From NCBI GenBank assembly GCA_963682025.1, contig OY821519.1, positions 252,886,116-252,950,115 of the forward strand: a stretch of DNA of 64,000 nucleotides, given 5' to 3'. Below are positions 3,413-54,366 of this stretch, piece after piece. Source of the DNA: Cordilura impudica (taxonomy: Eukaryota; Arthropoda; Insecta; Diptera; Scathophagidae). Under the pieces are notes generated by a model. It did not search any database and was not told the DNA's origin. It saw nothing but the letters and a program-made list of their open reading frames with translations. Position numbers and translations under genes: made by a program. Each line of letters starts with the position of its first letter. The stretch's first letter is position 1.

Positions 3413-4041
3413 GCGCAAAATCGCTATATCTATATGGGGACTAGGCCTAAAAATGGATCGATCCTGACCATGTTTGGTAAAGTCTCTTGTATTTTGGAAA
3501 AATACATACAAAAAAAATTTGAGAAGAATCATTGCAATATTTTTGTTTTTTTATAGATATAAGTGAAGATCGGGAAGCAGCTCTATATGGGGCCTATGAC
3601 TAAGAGTTGTCCTCATTTTTGGACTACTGATTAATGGATGTAATAAATACAATTTGACTAAGATTTATATGATAATTTGGATCTTATGGCAATTTATGTT
3701 GATTTCATAGGAGTCATTTATATGTGGGCTAGGTCTGACCACGGACCGATTCTCAGCAATTTCAATAGCGTTCATCCTATGGCCGATAAAAGCTTGTATA
3801 GCAAATTTCATCCAAATATACTCATATTTGCGACCTGCAGTTTGATTACAAGCTTTACATGGACACACAGACGGACGGACGGACGGACATCGTTAAATCG
3901 AATCAGATAGTGATTCTGATTCGATCGGTATAATAAAAGATGGGTCTAGGTCAAATATTTTTGGTAGTTACAAACAGCAGCACAAATTCATTATATACAA
4001 ACCACATAGTGGTATAGGGTATAAATAGCGCAAAATCGCGA
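2804..4041. repeat. 619-bp tandem segmental duplication
   Basis: Bases 2804-3422 are repeated at 3423-4041 with few differences: one GGAC unit fewer in the second copy and a few point changes. The duplicated unit comprises most of mini-me-like copy A plus about 13 bases of flanking A-rich array (AGCGCAAAATCGC-type). The junction sits at a short shared GCTATATC/ATCGC sequence, which suggests an unequal exchange or replication slip rather than a new transposition. Confidence 0.9.
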
Positions 4042-10281: not shown

Positions 10282-10378
10282 ATTTTGAAAACAAAGAAGA
10301 AAAAAGACTAAAGAACTTATTTTTCGTTACGGTTCGAGTTTGTGAAGGAACAGTGAATTGTGTCTAAACTCCAGGGAG

Positions 10379-11509
10379 ATGCCTAAAGATACGGAGAAAA
10401 CTGAAACACCACAGTTTAAACCATACTTCAACATATTACAAAGCAACGATATACTCAACACAATGACATCAACATCATCAACAGCAACACTAACTTCTGC
10501 TCCAACACAAACATCAGCACCCACAGCAGTGCCAACAGAAACATCATCGTTGGGTCCGATTCCAATTTCTATCCTTTTGAAGGAAGTAGATAGAATAAAT
10601 GTTTTCACTGGAAAAGATCGAGACTATGACATATCATCATTCATCCAGGAAGTCGAAATCTTCCTACGAATTTTTCAAGATGGTGAAATGGAGGAATATA
10701 TATACCATCGCTGCATACTTAAGAAGATACAGGGAGAAGCAGCCAATATAATTCGAGGTTTAACCGATAAATCATGGCAGAACGTGAAAAATGAGCTATT
10801 AAAGGTGTTCGGCATCAGGGAAAGCTACACCCAACTATACCATAGAGCACTATCAACAAAAAACAATGATGTAAGTCAATTATATAATAATTTAAAAATA
10901 ATATTAGATAAGTTGAATACAAAATACGAACAAGATTCATGTAAACCATTAGAATTCAACCCAAATATAAACGAATCAATGATTTTTCGAACTTTTGTTA
11001 ATGGTATACCTCCGCATTTGGCAAGTGTTATATATAGCCGAAATATTAATACTATTCGCGAAGCATATCATTGTTTACAGGAATGCGACATGATCAGGGA
11101 AAATAATCGACATTTTAGAAATACTAATCAAAATATTAAATACACTAACCAAAATTCTACCCATAATTATTCCGAACCTCACCAAAGGCAAAATTTTCGA
11201 CAAACAAATTTTAGACCGAGTAGACAGAATTTCCCAGACCAACGGACACAAGGTTTTTCTTGTCACCAAACACAAAACTTTCCAAATTCAAATCGACAAA
11301 CACAAGGTTTTGATAATCGGCAAGGGCAATATTCAAACGTAATTCGAAATTCGCAACAGTTCCGACAATCTAATCAGTCGCGACAAAATTCTGGTCAACA
11401 TCGACATAATGTTGAACCGATGGAAATAGATCATATTGAACAGAGTGAAATTGTTCCGAATGAGGAAGCAAATTTTCGTTCAGCCAAAAAGAAAACGGTT
11501 TACCGATAG
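10379..11509 (+). CDS. gag: Gag polyprotein
   Basis: Structural capsid precursor of the errantivirus. I start it at the ATG at 10379 (MPKDTEKTETPQ), giving 376 residues; the frame is open a little further upstream but has no earlier ATG. Residues ~25-65 are Ser/Thr/Pro-rich, ~75-235 form the helical capsid-like part (ILLKEVDRINVF...), and ~244-350 are rich in Gln, Asn and Arg. The last part replaces the usual CCHC zinc knuckles, which are absent, as is typical of this group. The frame ends with TAG at 11507-11509, overlapping the pol frame, so Pol is expected as a Gag-Pol fusion. Confidence 0.9.
   Translation: MPKDTEKTETPQFKPYFNILQSNDILNTMTSTSSTATLTSAPTQTSAPTAVPTETSSLGPIPISILLKEVDRINVFTGKDRDYDISSFIQEVEIFLRIFQDGEMEEYIYHRCILKKIQGEAANIIRGLTDKSWQNVKNELLKVFGIRESYTQLYHRALSTKNNDVSQLYNNLKIILDKLNTKYEQDSCKPLEFNPNINESMIFRTFVNGIPPHLASVIYSRNINTIREAYHCLQECDMIRENNRHFRNTNQNIKYTNQNSTHNYSEPHQRQNFRQTNFRPSRQNFPDQRTQGFSCHQTQNFPNSNRQTQGFDNRQGQYSNVIRNSQQFRQSNQSRQNSGQHRHNVEPMEIDHIEQSEIVPNEEANFRSAKKKTVYR
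11464..11509 (+). promoter_or_regulatory. gag-pol -1 frameshift window
   Basis: The pol frame is open from 11464, after a TGA at 11461-11463, while gag ends at 11509. This leaves a 46-base overlap in which the ribosome must move back one base. The best slip site is GCCAAAAAGAAAACG (11483-11497), where tandem lysine codons can re-pair with CAA AAA. The exact codon was not determined. Confidence 0.6.
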
Positions 11510-14500
11510 TACAATTAACTATTGGTAATTCCAAGATAAGATGTTTGATTGATACTGGATCAACCACATCAATATTAAATTGTAATGCACTTCCTAGTTA
11601 TGAACGTATAAAATTAAGAAAACCATTAATTTTCTCAACTCTGGCAAGCAAAGTAGTTATAAGTGAGGAAATTGTCACGGAAATCCCAGAAGAGTTTTCC
11701 GATAATAATTTTATGGCTTGGAAATTGTTGAAATTGACTAATAATAGATTTGATGGAATAATTGGTAATAATATATTGAAACCTTTAGGTGCAAAAATTT
11801 GTTTAGAAGAACGGTATATTCAGATTAATGATAGAAAAATTTTTTTTACAAATTCATTTCCTTGCTATTATAACGAGATTCATGCATTGGAATTTTTAGA
11901 TGTCAATAAGGAGAACATTAAAAAACTTTTTAGAGTCGACATGAATTCCGAAGAAAAAGAGTTTCTTCGTGATCTCATAAGTAAAAATAGCGACTTGTTG
12001 TTTCATGAAGGTGATTCACTTACTCATACTCATGAGATAAGACATTCCATAATTACTACTACAGATAAACCTGTATACTCTAAAATATACAGATATCCCA
12101 AAATACATGAAGACGAAATTAACAGGCAGATCCAAGAAATGTTACAACAGAAAATAATTGTGGAAAGTAACTCTGCCTATAATTCTCCTATCTGGGTTGT
12201 TCCAAAGAAAATGGACCAATCGGGCAGGAAGAAGTGGCGCATTGTTGTTGACTACAGAAAATTGAACGAGATAACGGTGGACGACAAATTTCCAATACCC
12301 AATATAGAAAATATATTGGATAAATTGGGAAAATCTACTTATTTTACAACATTGGATTTAGCCAAGGGTTTTCACCAAATTCTCATGAATACAAACGATA
12401 GAAAAAAAACAGCTTTCTCGACTCCCTTGGGACATTTTGAATACAACAGGATGCCCTTTGGATTAAAAAATGCTCCAGCAACCTTTCAACGTCTTATGAA
12501 CTCGGTACTTAGAGAATATATTAATAAAATTTGCGTTGTTTATTTAGATGACATTTTAATTTTTAGTACATCATTAACAGAGCATGTACAGAGTGTCAAC
12601 AAAATTTTTCAAAAATTACGAGAGCATAATCTGAAGATACAGCTCGACAAATGCGTTTTTTTGGCGAAGGAAACTGAATACCTTGGTCATGTTCTGAGCG
12701 AGGAAGGTCTAAGACCTAACCCAAATAAAATTGATGCAATTCAGAAGCTAAAGCTTCCTGAAACAACTAAACAGATAAAATCTTTCTTAGGAGTTACGGG
12801 GTACTACCGAAAATTTATTAAAGACTACGCAAAAGTTGCACAAGGATTAACTAAATATCTAAAGAAGAATACGAAAATTAATCTCAACGATCCTAATTAT
12901 CATGATTCCTTTGAAAAATTGAAAAAGTTGATCATTAACCCACCGATACTTAAGTATCCAGATTATTCAAAAAAATTTAAATTAACTACTGATGCAAGTG
13001 GTTATGCTGTAGGTGCCGTATTGTCTCAGGAAAATCATCCAATTGCCTATGCAAGTAGAACATTGAATGACCACGAGAGGCATTATGCGACTGTGGAAAA
13101 AGAATTGCTGGCTATTGTTTGGGCAGTAAACTACTTCCGTCCATATCTATATGGCAGGCAATTTGAACTATTTACGGACCATCAACCATTGGTTTGGCTT
13201 CAATCCAAAACCAAGGGTAAAGATATAAACCAAAGACTCCAGCGTTGGCTGTTGAGGTTGGGAGAGTATGATTTTAAAATAAGTTACATCAAGGGTAAAG
13301 AGAACGTTGTAGCCGATTTTATGAGCCGTATAAATGCACCAAATGATATTGTTTTCATGGCAGATGATCAAATGAGTGTGGCTGCAACTATCCATTCTCA
13401 ACAGGAAGAATTGAATGATCATTTTTTTATTTTGGACACAGTCGTTAATAGATTTGAGAAGCAAATAATACTAACTGATAACAAAACTAATGAAACTCAA
13501 ATCATTGACGGCAAACATAAAATTTTTTTAAACACTAACGATATCATAACCGGTACAATGACCGATATAATTAGAAGGAATATAACTATCAAGAGAAATT
13601 TGAAGATAGGTATTTACACCGAATTGTCTGATCATTTGTACAATAAAGTACAATTAAAGCTAATTGAAATATTCGGTAACTCAATAAAATTTGTCCGATG
13701 TGTTTATCACGCTAAAGATATGCTGAATGAGGATGAATTGTATAGATATATAGCAAAATACCATAAAAATGAAACAGGTCATGCAGGAATTAACGAAAAT
13801 TATTGTGGTTTGAAAACTAAAATTTATTTTAACAATCTTAAACATTTTATTCAGAAATACGTTAATAATTGTAATGTTTGCAACAAATCCAAATATGATA
13901 GGAAACCAATAACACCAAAATTTCATGTCACAGAAACACCAAAAGATGTTAATGAAATAGTACATATGGACGTATATACAAATAAGAAACACAGTTTTTT
14001 ATCTTTCATTGACAAATTTTCAAAATACGCAGTTATGTTATATTTGGAAGACAGAAATAGCTGTACAATAGTAGAGAAAATTAGACTCTATATATCAATG
14101 AGAGGTAAACCAAACAAAGTAGTTACAGACAACGAATTCGCATCCATCAATGTAAAGAACTTTTTACGAGAGGAAAATATTACAGTTCATTTCACCAAAC
14201 CTAACAACCATACAGGAAATGCAGATATCGAAAGATTACATAGTAGCATATCAGACAAGTTTAGAACATTAGAATTTCAACGATCAGAATTATCAGTACA
14301 AGAGCGAATGTATAAATGTGTTGAATGGTATAATAAATCCATTCACTCAACAACGATGAGCAGACCATTTGATGTAATACAAGGAACAATAGATAAAATA
14401 AAATTATATAATCGATTAAAAGACTTTAAGGATAAAATTATAACAAAAAGAAATTTGAATAGGGAACAATTTAATTATGACAAACCAGAAGCATATGTGA

Positions 14501-14661
14501 AAAATTATAAAGCTTTAAGACATAAATACGAACCTCGTTATAGAAAACTGAAAGTAGATAATATCCACCCAACTAACATCAAACGTCCCTTTAAATTTGC
14601 AGATTCACTGGATATTACGGCTTACGATTCTAATCCTACTAATATCACCGGTAATGAATAA
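11464..14661 (+). CDS. pol: Pol polyprotein (PR-RT-RNase H-IN)
   Basis: Replication polyprotein made by -1 frameshifting from gag. It has no ATG of its own near the start, so I give the open frame from 11464. Numbering residues from 11545, the aspartic protease DTGS is at 3-6. Reverse transcriptase carries YLDD at 333-336. RNase H has catalytic Asp at 483 (TDAS) and 545 (FTDHQP). Integrase has the zinc pair H740/H746 with C776/C779, and a D809, D862, E896 triad. The D862-E896 gap is 33 residues, slightly short of the usual 35. No stops or shifts were seen. The end overlaps the env ATG (ATGAATAA). Confidence 0.95.
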   Translation, partial: GSKFSFSQKENGLPIVQLTIGNSKIRCLIDTGSTTSILNCNALPSYERIKLRKPLIFSTLASKVVISEEIVTEIPEEFSDNNFMAWKLLKLTNNRFDGIIGNNILKPLGAKICLEERYIQINDRKIFFTNSFPCYYNEIHALEFLDVNKENIKKLFRVDMNSEEKEFLRDLISKNSDLLFHEGDSLTHTHEIRHSIITTTDKPVYSKIYRYPKIHEDEINRQIQEMLQQKIIVESNSAYNSPIWVVPKKMDQSGRKKWRIVVDYRKLNEITVDDKFPIPNIENILDKLGKSTYFTTLDLAKGFHQILMNTNDRKKTAFSTPLGHFEYNRMPFGLKNAPATFQRLMNSVLREYINKICVVYLDDILIFSTSLTEHVQSVNKIFQKLREHNLKIQLDKCVFLAKETEYLGHVLSEEGLRPNPNKIDAIQKLKLPETTKQIKSFLGVTGYYRKFIKDYAKVAQGLTKYLKKNTKINLNDPNYHDSFEKLKKLIINPPILKYPDYSKKFKLTTDASGYAVGAVLSQENHPIAYASRTLNDHERHYATVEKELLAIVWAVNYFRPYLYGRQFELFTDHQPLVWLQSKTKGKDINQRLQRWLLRLGEYDFKISYIKGKENVVADFMSRINAPNDIVFMADDQMSVAATIHSQQEELNDHFFILDTVVNRFEKQIILTDNKTNETQIIDGKHKIFLNTNDIITGTMTDIIRRNITIKRNLKIGIYTELSDHLYNKVQLKLIEIFGNSIKFVRCVYHAKDMLNEDELYRYIAKYHKNETGHAGINENYCGLKTKIYFNNLKHFIQKYVNNCNVCNKSKYDRKPITPKFHVTETPKDVNEIVHMDVYTNKKHSFLSFIDKFSKYAVMLYLEDRNSCTIVEKIRLYISMRGKPNKVVTDNEFASINVKNFLREENITVHFTKPNNHTGNADIERLHSSISDKFRTLEFQRSELSVQERMYKCVEWYNKSIHSTTMSRPFDVIQGTIDKIKLYNRLKDFKDKIITKRNLNREQFNYDKPEAYVKNYKALRHKYEPRYRKLKVDNIHPTNIKRPFKFADSLDITAYDSNPTNITGNE
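14591..14602 (+). promoter_or_regulatory. Candidate splice acceptor for env mRNA
   Basis: TTAAATTTGCAG precedes the env signal-peptide codons in phase with the env frame. Errantivirus env is known to be made from a spliced RNA, so an acceptor here is expected. It is a sequence match only. Confidence 0.4.
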
Positions 14662-16135
14662 CTTATTGATTCAACCTATAAATGAAGGCAACAGTGGATA
14701 TACGGAAATTAAGTTGGACAATGTAACAATGGTCGAAGCATATACAACGATAGTTCACACCATTTATCTAAGTGAAATCCAGGAAATAATTAGCCACATT
14801 GAAAATAGTATACAGCAGTCTAACATAAATAAACAAGTCTTACAAGCTCAGCTTAACAGGGTTATAATAAAGTTTCGTACTCTACAATTGAATAGAGGTA
14901 AAAGAGGTTTAGCTAATGTTTTGGGATCAGGTCTGAAATGGATGGCAGGAACTATGGACGAAGAAGATAGGGAAACAATACAGAATCATTTACAAATTAT
15001 AGATAACAATAATCATAATATAATAGAAACCGCAAACAAACAAATAAAAATTACAAATCATTTCAATGAAACACTAACTAACTTAAAACACACTATTGAA
15101 TCGGATAGAGATATTATTCTGGCAAAAATCAATTCAATAGACAAAAATAACTTAGATATTTTTTCACACATTTTTTATCTTGATTTGGTGCTAAAGATTA
15201 AAACATTGGACGAACAGATTGAGCATATACAAGATAATATTATTGCAGCTAACCACAATCTTATGACTAACAATATACTAACACCAGAGGAAATTAATGA
15301 TTTAAATATTGATTTCAATAAATTACAACAAATACAATTAACAGTTGCTAAATACCGGAATGAACAAATTGTATTTTTTATAAAGATACCACTAAATATT
15401 ATTACAGTCCCAAAATCATTGATTATGCCAATTAAAAACAAGGAAGGTTTTGAATTGGATATAAGAATACAAGAAATTGTTATTATCAATAATACTGTTT
15501 ACAATTACAATAACGAACAAAATATTTCCAATCTAAAAAAATCAAACCTATGTATTTTTAGTAATAAGCAAAAGTGTTACAAAATTCTCAATAATAAAGA
15601 AGAAATTTTAGAGGTTGAACAGGGAATGGTGCTTCTAAAGAATGTAAATGGTGCAAAGGTAGAAAGTAACTGCGACAGCAGGAAATTAGTTTTAAGTGGA
15701 AATCAACTTCTTACATTTAATGATTGCAAAATAAAAATTGATGGCAATATTTATGAAAATAAACAAAAAGAATATAAAACCAGTTTTGCATTATCACCAA
15801 ATTTAAATTTAAATAATATGGAAACAACCATTTCTTTGGATCAAATAGCTATAAATGAAGTGGAACATATAAAAACCATAGAAGAATTGAAATATCATAA
15901 AGCAATACATTTTAATTCAATAATTGGTAATTATTTTCTAACTATCTGTATTGCAATTATATGTTTAACTTTTATAATCATAATTTATAAGAAATACAAA
16001 AAATCTCTTAAGAAAATCCAGGAGAATTTTCAATCTAAGGAGGGAGGAGTTAAGTCCAATGGAACACTGAACTCAACAGATTCCATCGAACTTGAAAACC
16101 CTATATCTAGCATAAGAATAAATTACCAAGAATAA
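14654..16135 (+). CDS. env: Envelope glycoprotein
   Basis: Membrane fusion protein of the errantivirus. The first ATG is at 14654, but the frame is open upstream and those ~19 codons read as a hydrophobic signal peptide (RLTILILLISPV). A splice acceptor-like TTTGCAG ends at 14602, in phase. The natural message is therefore probably spliced, with a start codon brought from an upstream exon; the donor was not found. Counting from 14597, a furin-type RGKR lies at 100-103, followed by a Gly-rich fusion-peptide-like GLANVLGSGLKW. One transmembrane segment is at ~445-466 with a Lys-rich tail. The last ~29 codons lie inside the 3' LTR. Confidence 0.88.
   Translation: MNNLLIQPINEGNSGYTEIKLDNVTMVEAYTTIVHTIYLSEIQEIISHIENSIQQSNINKQVLQAQLNRVIIKFRTLQLNRGKRGLANVLGSGLKWMAGTMDEEDRETIQNHLQIIDNNNHNIIETANKQIKITNHFNETLTNLKHTIESDRDIILAKINSIDKNNLDIFSHIFYLDLVLKIKTLDEQIEHIQDNIIAANHNLMTNNILTPEEINDLNIDFNKLQQIQLTVAKYRNEQIVFFIKIPLNIITVPKSLIMPIKNKEGFELDIRIQEIVIINNTVYNYNNEQNISNLKKSNLCIFSNKQKCYKILNNKEEILEVEQGMVLLKNVNGAKVESNCDSRKLVLSGNQLLTFNDCKIKIDGNIYENKQKEYKTSFALSPNLNLNNMETTISLDQIAINEVEHIKTIEELKYHKAIHFNSIIGNYFLTICIAIICLTFIIIIYKKYKKSLKKIQENFQSKEGGVKSNGTLNSTDSIELENPISSIRINYQE
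16037..16047 (+). promoter_or_regulatory. Polypurine tract
   Basis: AAGGAGGGAGG abuts the 3' LTR start at 16048. This is the standard position for the plus-strand primer. Confidence 0.85.
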
Positions 16136-24691: not shown

Positions 24692-25345
24692 TCAATTGAG
24701 AAAAAGGTTAAATAGTTCTTTCTTAAATGATGTTGTATTTGATATTTTGTGAAGTTGATTATTTACAGTATGTAACGAGTTCCAAAGACGTATGCCATTT
24801 ACAAAAAAGTGTCTTTCGGATATTAGTATATTGTACAGTATTGGTACAAGACAGTTATTACGGTTAGATCTTGTGAATAGTAATCGCTCGAAAAGGTAAA
24901 CGGGTTCTTTAGTGAAAATAAGTAAAGTTCTAAATTTAAGATAGTCTTCAAATGAAATGCCATAAATTTTATTTAGAACAACGGAGATACTATTATATTT
25001 GCGTAAACCGTAAACATATCTAACTACACTTTTAAAGACGCATGTAAGTTTACCCATGTCTGCACTAACACAACCTGACAACAATTCACAACCATATAAA
25101 AGCGTAGGTAAGATAAACGATTTTGCAAGAACAAATCTAATTTTCTGCGGTGTGAAGTACTGAGAAGACCAAAGACTACGGAGAATACTATAAACTTTTC
25201 CAGAAGCTTTGTTAATTTGATCATTCCACGTTAGGGTATTATTGAAAATCATTCCAAGGTTTTTAGCATTGCAGACAATAAAACCCAAAAATAGTTCAAA
25301 AAAGAAACCAGCAATTAACATACATATGTATGAAAAAAGAGAATT
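24692..25345 (-). pseudogene. Non-LTR retrotransposon reverse transcriptase, C-terminal fragment
   Basis: The open minus-strand frame encodes the part after the catalytic palm of a LINE-type reverse transcriptase. Visible motifs are KNLGMIFNNTLTWNDQINKA, LAKSFILPTLLYGCELL, a VVRYVYGLRKY segment and the late FFVNGIRLWNSL box with a C-terminal FKKELFNLF. The YADD-containing domain and the endonuclease are missing, so the element is 5'-truncated, the usual fate of these retrotransposons. The first ~20 residues are hydrophobic and do not look like the family; they are probably flank. The region 24440-24690 is then its 3' untranslated part. Jockey/CR1-like affinity is likely but not proven. Confidence 0.8.
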
Positions 25346-48473: not shown

Positions 48474-48477
48474 TTTA
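48474..48477. repeat. Target-site duplication TTTA, left
   Basis: TTTA before the left inverted repeat recurs at 52175-52178 after the right one. Confidence 0.65.
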
Positions 48478-49058
48478 GGGTAAAAACATATGAAATCAAC
48501 CGAAAATATTAACATTTGTGACCTCATCACCTCCAACTTTGATAAGATTTTGTACACATGATCTATGGATCGGCACAATAATATTTGCCAACTTTCAGAC
48601 ATATAGCCTTCGAACTTTCAGAATTATGGCCATTCCAAGTTGGCAAAAATCAATAAAAATGCACTCAGATGCCTTAACACAATTTTTAATATCTCGAAAA
48701 GTATTCATTGCACGTTAATAATCAAGGGCTCATTTTACAGACTAAAACATGCGCCATTCCAAAAATTTTTTTTTTCAAATTTTCGATCAAGGATAATGTA
48801 AATAAAAAAGGACTAAAATTTCCAAAGGATATTTCTCGAAAATCAATATTTTTAAAAATTTCAAAAAAATGTATGTTAATTCTTATTATGTTTTGTACAA
48901 GTCTGTCAAATTTCAATGTCGAGTCTTTATTACAACATGAGTTATTAAGAAAAAAGCAGGCGAAGGTTTATGTATTTCATGAAATGTACCAAAATGCAAA
49001 AAGGTGACAAATTACAAAAAGAAGGCAAAATCAAATGTAACGGAACTTTTTCGACTTT
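48478..49058 (+). repeat. Left terminal inverted repeat
   Basis: Runs from GGGTAAAAACATATG to ACTTTTTCGACTTTT. Its inner part encodes the same by-product frame (KDNVNKKGLKFPKDI...) as the right repeat, which made the inversion visible. Confidence 0.85.
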
Positions 49059-49210
49059 TCTTTGCTTAAACTCTTTTTCTCCATTGCTAAACCTTTAATA
49101 AAAAGTACAACATAATGTATTATCATTATTAAACACTTTATTACAGCATATTTATTTATTTCTGAAGGATTTCAATTAAAAAATCTGCATCTGCCGCGTA
49201 TCGCTTGACT

Positions 49211-51187
49211 TTAATTTTTTTTTTTATCTACAGGTTCAATAGAATGCAGCTTTTGAGTTCCAGGAATAGTACGCAAATCTTTAAAACGAATTTGAAGGAA
49301 CCGTGCTTCTTCTTCGTGGTCTTCTAGAGTTAAAAACTCGAAATTACAGTTCAAAAGATTTTGCAGGCACCATTCATATAATTGTTTTGGAGTAGTTATT
49401 TGACCTTGTAATGGACGCTGTAAACTAGCTCGACGTGCCTCTCTCTTTACGGTACCTCCAAGACCGTCACTTGGGCCTTTCCCATGGCTTGTTGCAAAAA
49501 AATGCCACTCAGCATTACATCCAAAATCTTCCATATGATAACATAAATTGATAAAGTTCTTTTTATTTTTAAACTGGGCAGCACTACCGTCTGAAAAATA
49601 CGTGATTTTCTTCGGGGTTGTTTTAAACTTTTTTCTCAAAAATACATTCAGGTGGCGATGGAACAGGTGAACAGGTACAGAATCGTGTACAAGACAATCA
49701 GATATTATTATGAAGTTTGTATGTTGTGTTTTTCCATCTGATTTAAAATAAATAGCAATTGGGTATAAAGTGGCCTGAGAGTTGTTCCAGTGAAATCCCT
49801 GGACTGCATCCTAAATAGTAAAAGAAGCATTTTCTGAAAAATCGCAAACTGCTATATACTCATTTTCTTCCAAATTTGATTTTCTTTCGCTCAGATATGC
49901 TGCCTGCTGTTTTGCAATAAATGAATGAGGTAATAGAATTTCAAGTTTTTCACATAGGGAATCCACAAAAACGTCGGCTTGGCCAATCATGGTCTCCAAA
50001 TTATCCCTATCTACACTTACCCATTGTTTATATGTTATTTCATCAATATCATTTTGCTCTAGTAATTGATTTAGTTTTGCTTTTAAATTTTCAATTCCTG
50101 GACACTTGTTACATTTACGTAGGTGACACTTTGAAGAAGATGGAATGCATGTCATTTGTTTCAAACAATCTTTGTAACATTCAAGCTGATAATTCGGAAC
50201 ACCAGCAGTTAATTTTTTTAAATTTATGGCATCAATCATCAGCTACACATTTTGATGCTTTGTACAAACACACACGTTATGAGATCCACTCGCATTTGCT
50301 AGAATTATATTCCTCGGACGAAGTTGGCAAAACTTGCAAATACCTATTTTTATTCCATCATGTCGTTCCTTGAATAAGGCGTACATTTCTCTTAAGTTTC
50401 CAAGCAAAAGTCTTTTATTTTTCCTGACTTTTGTACCATTTTCAAAAACAGACACGAAATCTTTCTGTCCGGGCATACACCTGCTGACGTCATCGGATTC
50501 ATAAAAGGATTTTACTAAATTGCTTGTCACTGGTGAAATTGGACTTCCCAGTTTTGGGTAAGGCGTACTCATCACACCCTTTGTTTCAACCAAATGCTTA
50601 AGGAGGAATTCTTCCTCAATTTTATGTATTGCCCAGCTTTTTGGTAAAATTGTTAGCAGTTGGATTTTCTCGCTATTTTTTGTTAATGTTTTAAACTTTT
50701 CTTTTAATTGTTCTATTATTTCGGATTGTGGGCACATATGCGAAGTTGATTGTGCTGAACCGTGGAAAATTTTGTCTTGAATCGAATCACTTATTTTCCT
50801 GAATTTTCCATCTCTGTACCGTTTTTGATGTAACTTCTTCTTTTTTATCGGAGATTGTTCCAGATACGGTAAATATTGGTTTAATTTTGAAATAGCAACT
50901 TCTTCCGTGCCTGACGCAATGTCATCTTTTTCCGTGCCTGACGCAATGTCATCGAAAGTATCTACATTTTCGTTTATGTCTGAACCTTCTTCCAAATTAG
51001 ATTTATTAGATTTCTTCAGATGCGAAAATTTTATTCTACATGTCCCACAAATTTTATTTGAGATCGCAATGTTTTTATCCTTAGTATACTGTAGCATCCA
51101 TTCTTGGACTTGTCTTAAACTTTTATTGCACCCAGTGTGACCGGATTTTTTAAAAGGATTACAGCAAAATGTTGACTGGAATGGCAT
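49211..51187 (-). pseudogene. Transposase-like gene broken by two TAG codons
   Basis: A single 659-codon frame from the ATG at 51187 to a stop at 49211-49213. Its only breaks are TAG at 50243-50245 (codon 315) and TAG at 49811-49813 (codon 459). Possible zinc sites are C8, C9, H17, C20, C47, C50 near the N-terminus; CKFC with HNVCVCTKH just before codon 315; and a four-Cys CHLRKCNKC region after it. Later come CDFSENASFT, ISDCLVHD, YFSDGSAAQFKN and HGKGPSDGLGGTVKRE, a plausible RNase H-fold DD(E/D) set. I recall similar uncharacterised proteins in Hydra and aphids. It may be dead or read through. Confidence 0.75.
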
Positions 51188-51602
51188 ATTTTTTTTTTTT
51201 TAAATACCACAACCGAATGAATTGTGCACGTTTTTTTTGTATTGACAATAATTATAATTTATTTAAATATTTAGTCTCTTTTTTTTGTTTTTTCAAACGA
51301 TCAAGTCACTTTAACACTATAACACTTTGACGTTTAGCACTTATGAAATCTAGTATTCAACTGAAGTTTGTCTTACAGTCTCTGAACGATTTATACTGTT
51401 TTTTTTTGGTATAAAAAATAGATTACAGGTAAAAAAATACACGCCTTGCTTTTCTTGAATTGGAAAATTTGCGTGAACTACGGGTCATAAAATGTTTTTT
51501 AAATAGGGACTGAATTTGCTACTGCCAATAAGCCGACCACAGGTCATAAAATATTTGTAAATTTTTTGTGTGAACAGGCAATAAATATTTCGTCTAGGTT
51601 GT
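51188..51602. other. Presumed promoter region of the transposase-like gene
   Basis: Non-coding interior between the gene start and the right inverted repeat. It includes T-runs and TATACTG/GGTATAAAAAATA near 51390-51420, which on the minus strand could serve as core promoter. No firm element was identified. Confidence 0.3.
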
Positions 51603-52174
51603 AAAGTCGAAAAAGTTCCGTTACATTTGATATGTCCTTCTTTTTGTAATTTGTCACCTTTTTGTATTTTGGTACATTTCATGAAATACATAAACCTTCG
51701 CCTGCTTTTTTCTTAATAACTCATGTTGTAATAAAGACTCCACATTGAAATTTGACAGACTTGTACAAAACATAATAAGAATTAACATATATTTTTTTGA
51801 AATTTTTAAAAATATTGATTTTCGAGAAATATCCTTTGGAAATTTTAGTCCTTTTTTATTTACATTATCCTTGATCGAAAATTTGAAAAAAAAATTTTTT
51901 TGGAATGGCGCATGTTTTAGTCTGTAAAATGAGCCCTTGATTATTAACGTACAATGAATACTTTTCGAGATATTAAAAATTGTGTTAAGGTATCTGAGTG
52001 CATTTTTATTGATTTTTGCCAACTTGGAATGGCCATAATTCTGAAAATACGAGAGCTACGATACTGAAAGTTGGCAAACGCTATTATTATGTTTAACTTT
52101 CCCTTCGTAACAAAATTCATCCAATTCGAAATCGGTGCGGTCAACTCATTGGTTGATTTCATATGTTTTTACCC
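51603..52174 (-). repeat. Right terminal inverted repeat
   Basis: Inverse of the left repeat, ending GATTTCATATGTTTTTACCC. Immediately followed by TTTA. Confidence 0.85.
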
Positions 52175-52178
52175 TTTA

Positions 52179-53593: not shown

Positions 53594-54366
53594 TTTTATA
53601 CCCTATACCACTCTGTGGTTTGGGTATAATGACTTTGTGCTGCTGTTTGTAGCAACCAAAAATATTTGACCTAGACCCATCTTTAATTATACCGATCGAA
53701 TCAGAATCACTTTCTGAGTTGATTTAACAATGTCCGTCCGTCTGTGTGTCCATGTAAACCTTGTAATCAAACTGCAGGTCGCAAATATGAATAAATTTTG
53801 ATGAAATTTGGTATATAAGCTTTTATCGGCCATGGGATGAACGCTGTTGAAATTGGTGAGAATCGGTCCATGTTCAGACCTAGCCCCATACAAATTACCC
53901 ATATGAAATCGACATGAATTGCCATAAGATCCAAATTTTTATATAGATCTTACTCAAATTGGGTTTGTATGCGTTCATTACATCCATTAATGAGTAGTCC
54001 AAAAATGATCCCTTTGACCTCATATAGAGCTGCTTCCCGATCTTCACTTAAATCTATTAAAAAACAAAAATATTGCACTGATTCTGCTCAAATTTTGTTT
54101 GTATATATATTTGCAAAATACAAGAGACTTTACCAAACATGATCAGGATCGGTCCATTTTTGGACCTAGTTCCCATATAGATATAGCATCCGATATGAAC
54201 TTTTTCATATCTGCAGCCAAAAAAATTAATAAAAATCCCACTCAAATTTGGGTTTTGCTTATTTTCTATGTATAGTTAGTTGGGCCTAAGAGATAGGGTT
54301 TCTAAACGCATGGTATAGGGTATCGTATAGTCGGTCTAGACCGACTATAAATTTCTTACTTGTTTA
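53594..54366 (+). mobile_element. mini-me-like repeat copy I
   Basis: Complete copy in the GTCC orientation. It has TTTATACCCTATACCACTCT at the left, a short GTCCGTCCGTCTGTGTGTCC tract near 53730, an intact 18-bp palindrome (54330-54347), then ATAAATTTCTTACTTGTTT at the right. It was inserted into the minisatellite. A hairpin ~13 bases before one terminus is what Helitrons show at their 3' end. Confidence 0.85.

Follow-up and report, generated by a model that had tools for sequence, protein, structure and literature searches.

The 64,000-nucleotide stretch of the Cordilura impudica genome analyzed here (contig OY821519.1, positions 252,886,116 to 252,950,115; hereafter the window) carries, at positions 48478 to 52174, an element that is very probably a DNA transposon with a single gene. 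The element starts with GGG (first bases GGGTAAAAAC) and ends with CCC (last bases GTTTTTACCC), and TTTA is found on either side, at 48474-48477 and 52175-52178, in agreement with an earlier inspection of the letters alone (the sequence-only reading), which had reported GGG ends and a TTTA duplication. Its gene lies on the minus strand between two inverted arms and encodes a putative DDD transposase, whose closest relative is the 684-residue protein P0001. The features of the element are as follows:

48474-48477, no strand: left TTTA target site duplication, read from the sequence
48478-49058, plus strand: left inverted arm, with a perfect end of 24 bp, ~75 bp unmatched by the right arm, and ~480 bp at 92-98%
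49211-51187, minus strand: transposase reading frame, broken, with two in-frame TAG codons, eight residues missing as compared with P0001, and a shifted 3' end
49466-49468, minus strand: codon of the third putative catalytic Asp (GPSDGLGG), D582 of P0001, present in 157 of 158 relatives
49589-49591, minus strand: codon of the second putative catalytic Asp (YFSDGS), D541 of P0001, present in 158 of 158 relatives
49841-49843, minus strand: codon of the first putative catalytic Asp (CDFSEN), D457 of P0001, present in 157 of 158 relatives
50972-51187, minus strand: N-terminal Cys/His region, with C8, C9, H17, C47, and C50 conserved in relatives; its limits were chosen by us
51603-52174, minus strand: right inverted arm, from the arm-to-arm alignment
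52175-52178, no strand: right TTTA target site duplication, read from the sequence

The arms are long, as expected from the ~575-bp inverted repeats reported previously, but they are not uniform. The inverted segments in the window copy measure 298, 207, and 25 nt and are 98, 91, and 100% complementary, respectively, and end-to-end alignment of its arms returns 24 identical base pairs, followed by ~75 bp facing 65 bp without a match (~42%), and then by ~480 bp at 92-98%, the matched portion stopping near 49058 and 51603. When the 20 outermost bases of the element are searched for in the window, allowing up to three mismatches, they occur at two places only, which are both ends of the element, as compared with an average of 0.05 for shuffled sequences. 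Left and right ends were also compared with each other within each of 16 near-full-length copies (the window copy and 15 fetched ones). Positions 1-24 are 92-100% alike and positions 25-100 are 42-46% alike in all 16. For positions 101-300 the values are 86-93% in 14 copies, L029 (75%) and L031 (63%) being lower, and for positions 301-575 they are 98-100% in 15, with L035 at 77%. Since the 15 other copies keep the same unmatched subterminal stretches, with a mean identity to the window copy of 98.7% on the left and 98.3% on the right, the asymmetry of the arms is a trait of the family and not the decay of one copy.

The element is abundant in its host. The genome searched was the host assembly (1.486 Gb, 855 contigs), in which the left 300 bp returned 1023 first-look candidates; the 40 that were scored, window included, all show 98-100% identity. 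Perfect matches to the 24-bp end number 461 in forward and 444 in reverse orientation, as against 0 and 0 for the control pattern, the same letters read backwards. The first 100 places listed for this end, all on contig C1, comprise 44 inward-facing pairs and 12 single ends. As 38 of these 44 pairs span 3.50-3.76 kb, full-length elements dominate in this sample, which also contains shorter derivatives with end pairs spanning 848, 1552, and 1917 bp. If the rest of the genome resembles contig C1, extrapolation yields ~400 to 450 copies with perfect ends. Hundreds of further ends are therefore present, and the possibility that no other copy shares the ends of the window element falls away; the family seems to have spread recently to this number.

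Target sites were read from the 20 best-ranked copies fetched besides the window copy, L026 and L039 being left out for want of a right end within the fetched stretch, which together with the window gives 19 sites. An exact 4-bp duplication is found at 18 of these, and none matches at 5 bp. The duplication of L033 is off by one base (AAAT/ATAT), and the right end of L027 is altered to TTACAT. The duplicated sequences are diverse (ACTG, CCAA, ACCT, and AATT, for example), 10 of the 18 containing G or C, and their G+C content is 18% versus 30% in the flanks. The base just before the duplication is C in 9 of 18 sites (p 0.0005), the base just after it is G in 11 of 18 (p 0.00001), and T occupies position -6 in 13 of 18 (p 0.0014), all three values being uncorrected for the 24 positions considered. 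The flanking C and G would amount to a symmetric target preference, but as the T at -6 comes without a mirrored A, this is no more than a hint. One insertion, L023, has recognizable empty sites: its flanks joined by a single TACT return eight further places, all of exactly 200 bases and with an identity of 96-99%, in addition to the two halves at the filled site. The four of them that were fetched (L041-L044) are ungapped and contain one TACT each. These eight sites are paralogous copies of the host sequence into which L023 is inserted, as opposed to the L023 locus itself in a different individual. The follow-up proposed with the sequence-only reading, a search for 4-bp duplications and empty sites, thus returned the former at nearly all sites and the latter, in paralogous form, for one insertion. 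Inverted ends accompanied by a target duplication of fixed length are a hallmark of DDD/E elements, and both are found here.

The sequence-only reading had described a 659-codon frame. This frame is indeed located on the minus strand at 49211-51187, but it is not open: two of its 659 codons, at residues 315 and 459, are TAG. It is 97% identical to P0001, lacks eight residues, and ceases to match at residue 665 of 684; the residues of P0001 beyond this point are recognizable by eye in a different frame of the window copy, and six fetched copies (L021, L022, L023, L027, L028, and L034) also have the last residues out of frame. The window copy is thus unable to encode the full protein, and it could move only with protein supplied by another copy. 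In contrast with this broken frame, all 684 residues are found in one stop-free frame in 6 of the 20 fetched copies (L026, L029, L030, L031, L032, and L036), five of which have both ends in view. A genome-wide search with the C-terminal half returned 13512 first-look candidates, of which 118 matches were scored, all at least 99% identical; no stop interrupts the matched portion in 104 of them, 73 of which belong to open frames with 660 codons or more. The figure of 118 counts matches and not copies, because L021 holds two. In L021, whose length is 5285 bp, a stretch of ~1.6 kb is repeated internally, so that the C-terminal half of the transposase is present twice. Intact-looking copies exist in the genome, and they may be active.

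The relatives of the encoded protein are many, as anticipated, whereas their supposed frequency in some invertebrates comes down to Bemisia tabaci, the sole organism named among the relatives listed. The N-terminal Cys/His region is a putative zinc-binding, DNA-binding region, and a C-terminal module is present in 118 of 158 relatives. Candidate catalytic acids had been proposed in CDFSEN, YFSDGS, and SDGLGGTVKRE. The three motifs are found on the minus strand and the D of SDG is conserved, but the E of VKRE is replaced by L in the consensus of the relatives. The third acid usually follows the second by 40 residues. In DDD/E enzymes, according to the portion of PMC5718144 available, the first D lies on or near strand 1, the second on or near strand 4, and the third acid on or near the following helix. 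In the predicted model, D457 comes after strand 451-456, D541 is the last residue of strand 535-541, and D582 is the first residue of helix 582-598. Together with the structural matches of the model, this placement points to an RNase H-like DDD/E core, and a predicted fold devoid of such a core, the other outcome that could have spoken against a transposase, was not obtained. The family has no sequence match with retroviral integrases, the Mos1 mariner, IstA, or the CAST transposase, from which it also differs by its D as third acid, usually 40 residues past the second, and by an N-terminal half without a match.

We consider the element to be a recently amplified cut-and-paste DNA transposon whose single gene encodes a DDD transposase built on an RNase H-like core, with a probability of about 0.92. 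The basis of this reading is the ends and their counts, the duplications, the L023 empty sites, the uninterrupted frames elsewhere in the genome, and the conserved triad, all directly read, together with a fold that is predicted. The DNA transposon proposed from the sequence alone is strongly supported by the number of further ends, the duplications, and the empty sites, and a DDD-transposon mode with a 4-bp stagger is well supported. Following the general scheme of DDE/D transposases, the transposase would bind the ends via its N-terminal zinc and helical region, the bound transposases would pair the two ends, and the aspartates, with metal ions, would cut at the GGG/CCC borders. The free ends would then attack the target DNA across a 4-bp stagger, the repair of which would leave the 4-bp duplications.

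Regarding its superfamily, the element probably belongs by descent to Sola as defined in Repbase, although it could be set beside Sola1, Sola2, and Sola3 by their descriptions only. The available part of PMC10741241 lists a DDD transposase, 4-bp duplications, a size that is 2-9 kb in most cases, and an arm length of 11-1124 bp, and all these published traits fit: the duplications have 4 bp at 18 of 19 sites, and the third putative catalytic residue is D, not E, in 157 of 158 relatives. It may be that this family is already catalogued under Sola2. This is hinted at by the name of its Bemisia relative, 'Cc8L18.2-like', a lead only, which we take to come from the wasp Cotesia congregata, and by the Sola2 content of that wasp. 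The accessible text of PMC7822920 describes the wasp genome as rich in Sola2 and the 'BV26' genes of its viral segments as Sola2-derived short elements. Two observations may weigh against Sola. The Sola2 elements of slime moulds, the only ones for which the excerpt of PMC3627910 provides a rule, have AWWT or AT-rich duplications, a narrower range than here, where the duplications are poorer in G+C than the flanks but 10 of 18 contain G or C. Moreover, one classification (PMC3985635, as far as its available text goes) places Sola in a clade with the RNases H of retroelements, whereas the predicted model best matches integrases, mainly, and transposases.

It is less likely that the element represents a superfamily not yet described, or a distinct branch of DDD transposons, with a likeness to Sola in anatomy only. 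No Pfam or NCBIfam model fits the transposase family, no relevant PDB sequence matches it, just one relative among those listed bears the label 'transposase', and no mention of six family motifs was found in the literature searched; on the other hand, absence from Pfam says little on coverage by Repbase or Dfam. Somewhat less likely still is a large DDD transposase group outside all present superfamilies, which would be marked by the signature D-(83)-D-CxH-HGK-D-K, by long arms with dissimilar subterminal stretches, and by the C-terminal module of the 118 relatives; one of its families would then be in the midst of a burst in this genome, with ~450 copies and many uninterrupted frames.

An element of the Kolobok, piggyBac, Ginger, or IS481EU type is very improbable. 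Ginger elements end in TGT. TTAA is found in none of the 18 duplications, and the C/DxxH motif is absent between D541 and D582 in both P0001 and the A3 consensus, which have only C557-x-H559 there. In the available portions of PMC9587614 and PMC10045372, duplications of ~4 bp are attributed to these four types as well, and C/DxxH is common to Kolobok, hAT, MuDR, P, and Dada (PMC9587614). Kolobok and its C/DxxH relatives are DNA transposons like the present element and share its DDD/E core and, for some of them, its 4-bp duplications, but they differ from it in TTAA and in C/DxxH. The TTAA result speaks against classical Kolobok only, because the KolobokP lineage produces 3-5 bp duplications, not TTAA alone (PMC9587614, same portion). 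The ends, GGG...CCC, also differ from the CC...GG of piggyBac, which targets TTAA, and from the TNT...AYA of IS481EU (PMC9587614 and PMC10045372, in part). Finally, a segmental or satellite-like duplication, for which the high identity of the copies might plead, is refuted by the L023 empty sites and has against it 4-bp duplications within differing flanks.

Other features were recorded in the window and the genome. Three successive long open frames at 10358-16135 (383, 1038, and 512 codons) resemble, by reading, the gag, pol, and env of a gypsy/errantivirus-type long terminal repeat element, and a 209-codon frame at 24692-25321 (minus strand) resembles the end of a long interspersed nuclear element (LINE) reverse transcriptase, also by reading. 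A dispersed repeat of ~320 bp occurs at nine places in the window (3662-3985 and 53635-53949, for example) and resembles the L034 right flank at 72-86%. Large contigs of the assembly contain long COX1-like stretches (G000 C2:170329906-170331246, C2:170416148-170417479, and C5:21573894-21575075), which are probably nuclear copies of mitochondrial DNA; contig C855 is also COX1-like and was taken as mitochondrial.

The transposon family is abundant, ordinary in kind, and looks young. A many-membered and mostly unnamed protein family devoid of a Pfam model gains a likely function, a mobile context, exact ends, a target rule with a duplication length, and a testable catalytic triad, and its proteins can therefore be named transposases instead of hypothetical genes. 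The hundreds of copies produced in this burst, most of them full length in the sample and many with uninterrupted frames, are a possible source of a gene-transfer tool and may also serve for studying a young invasion.
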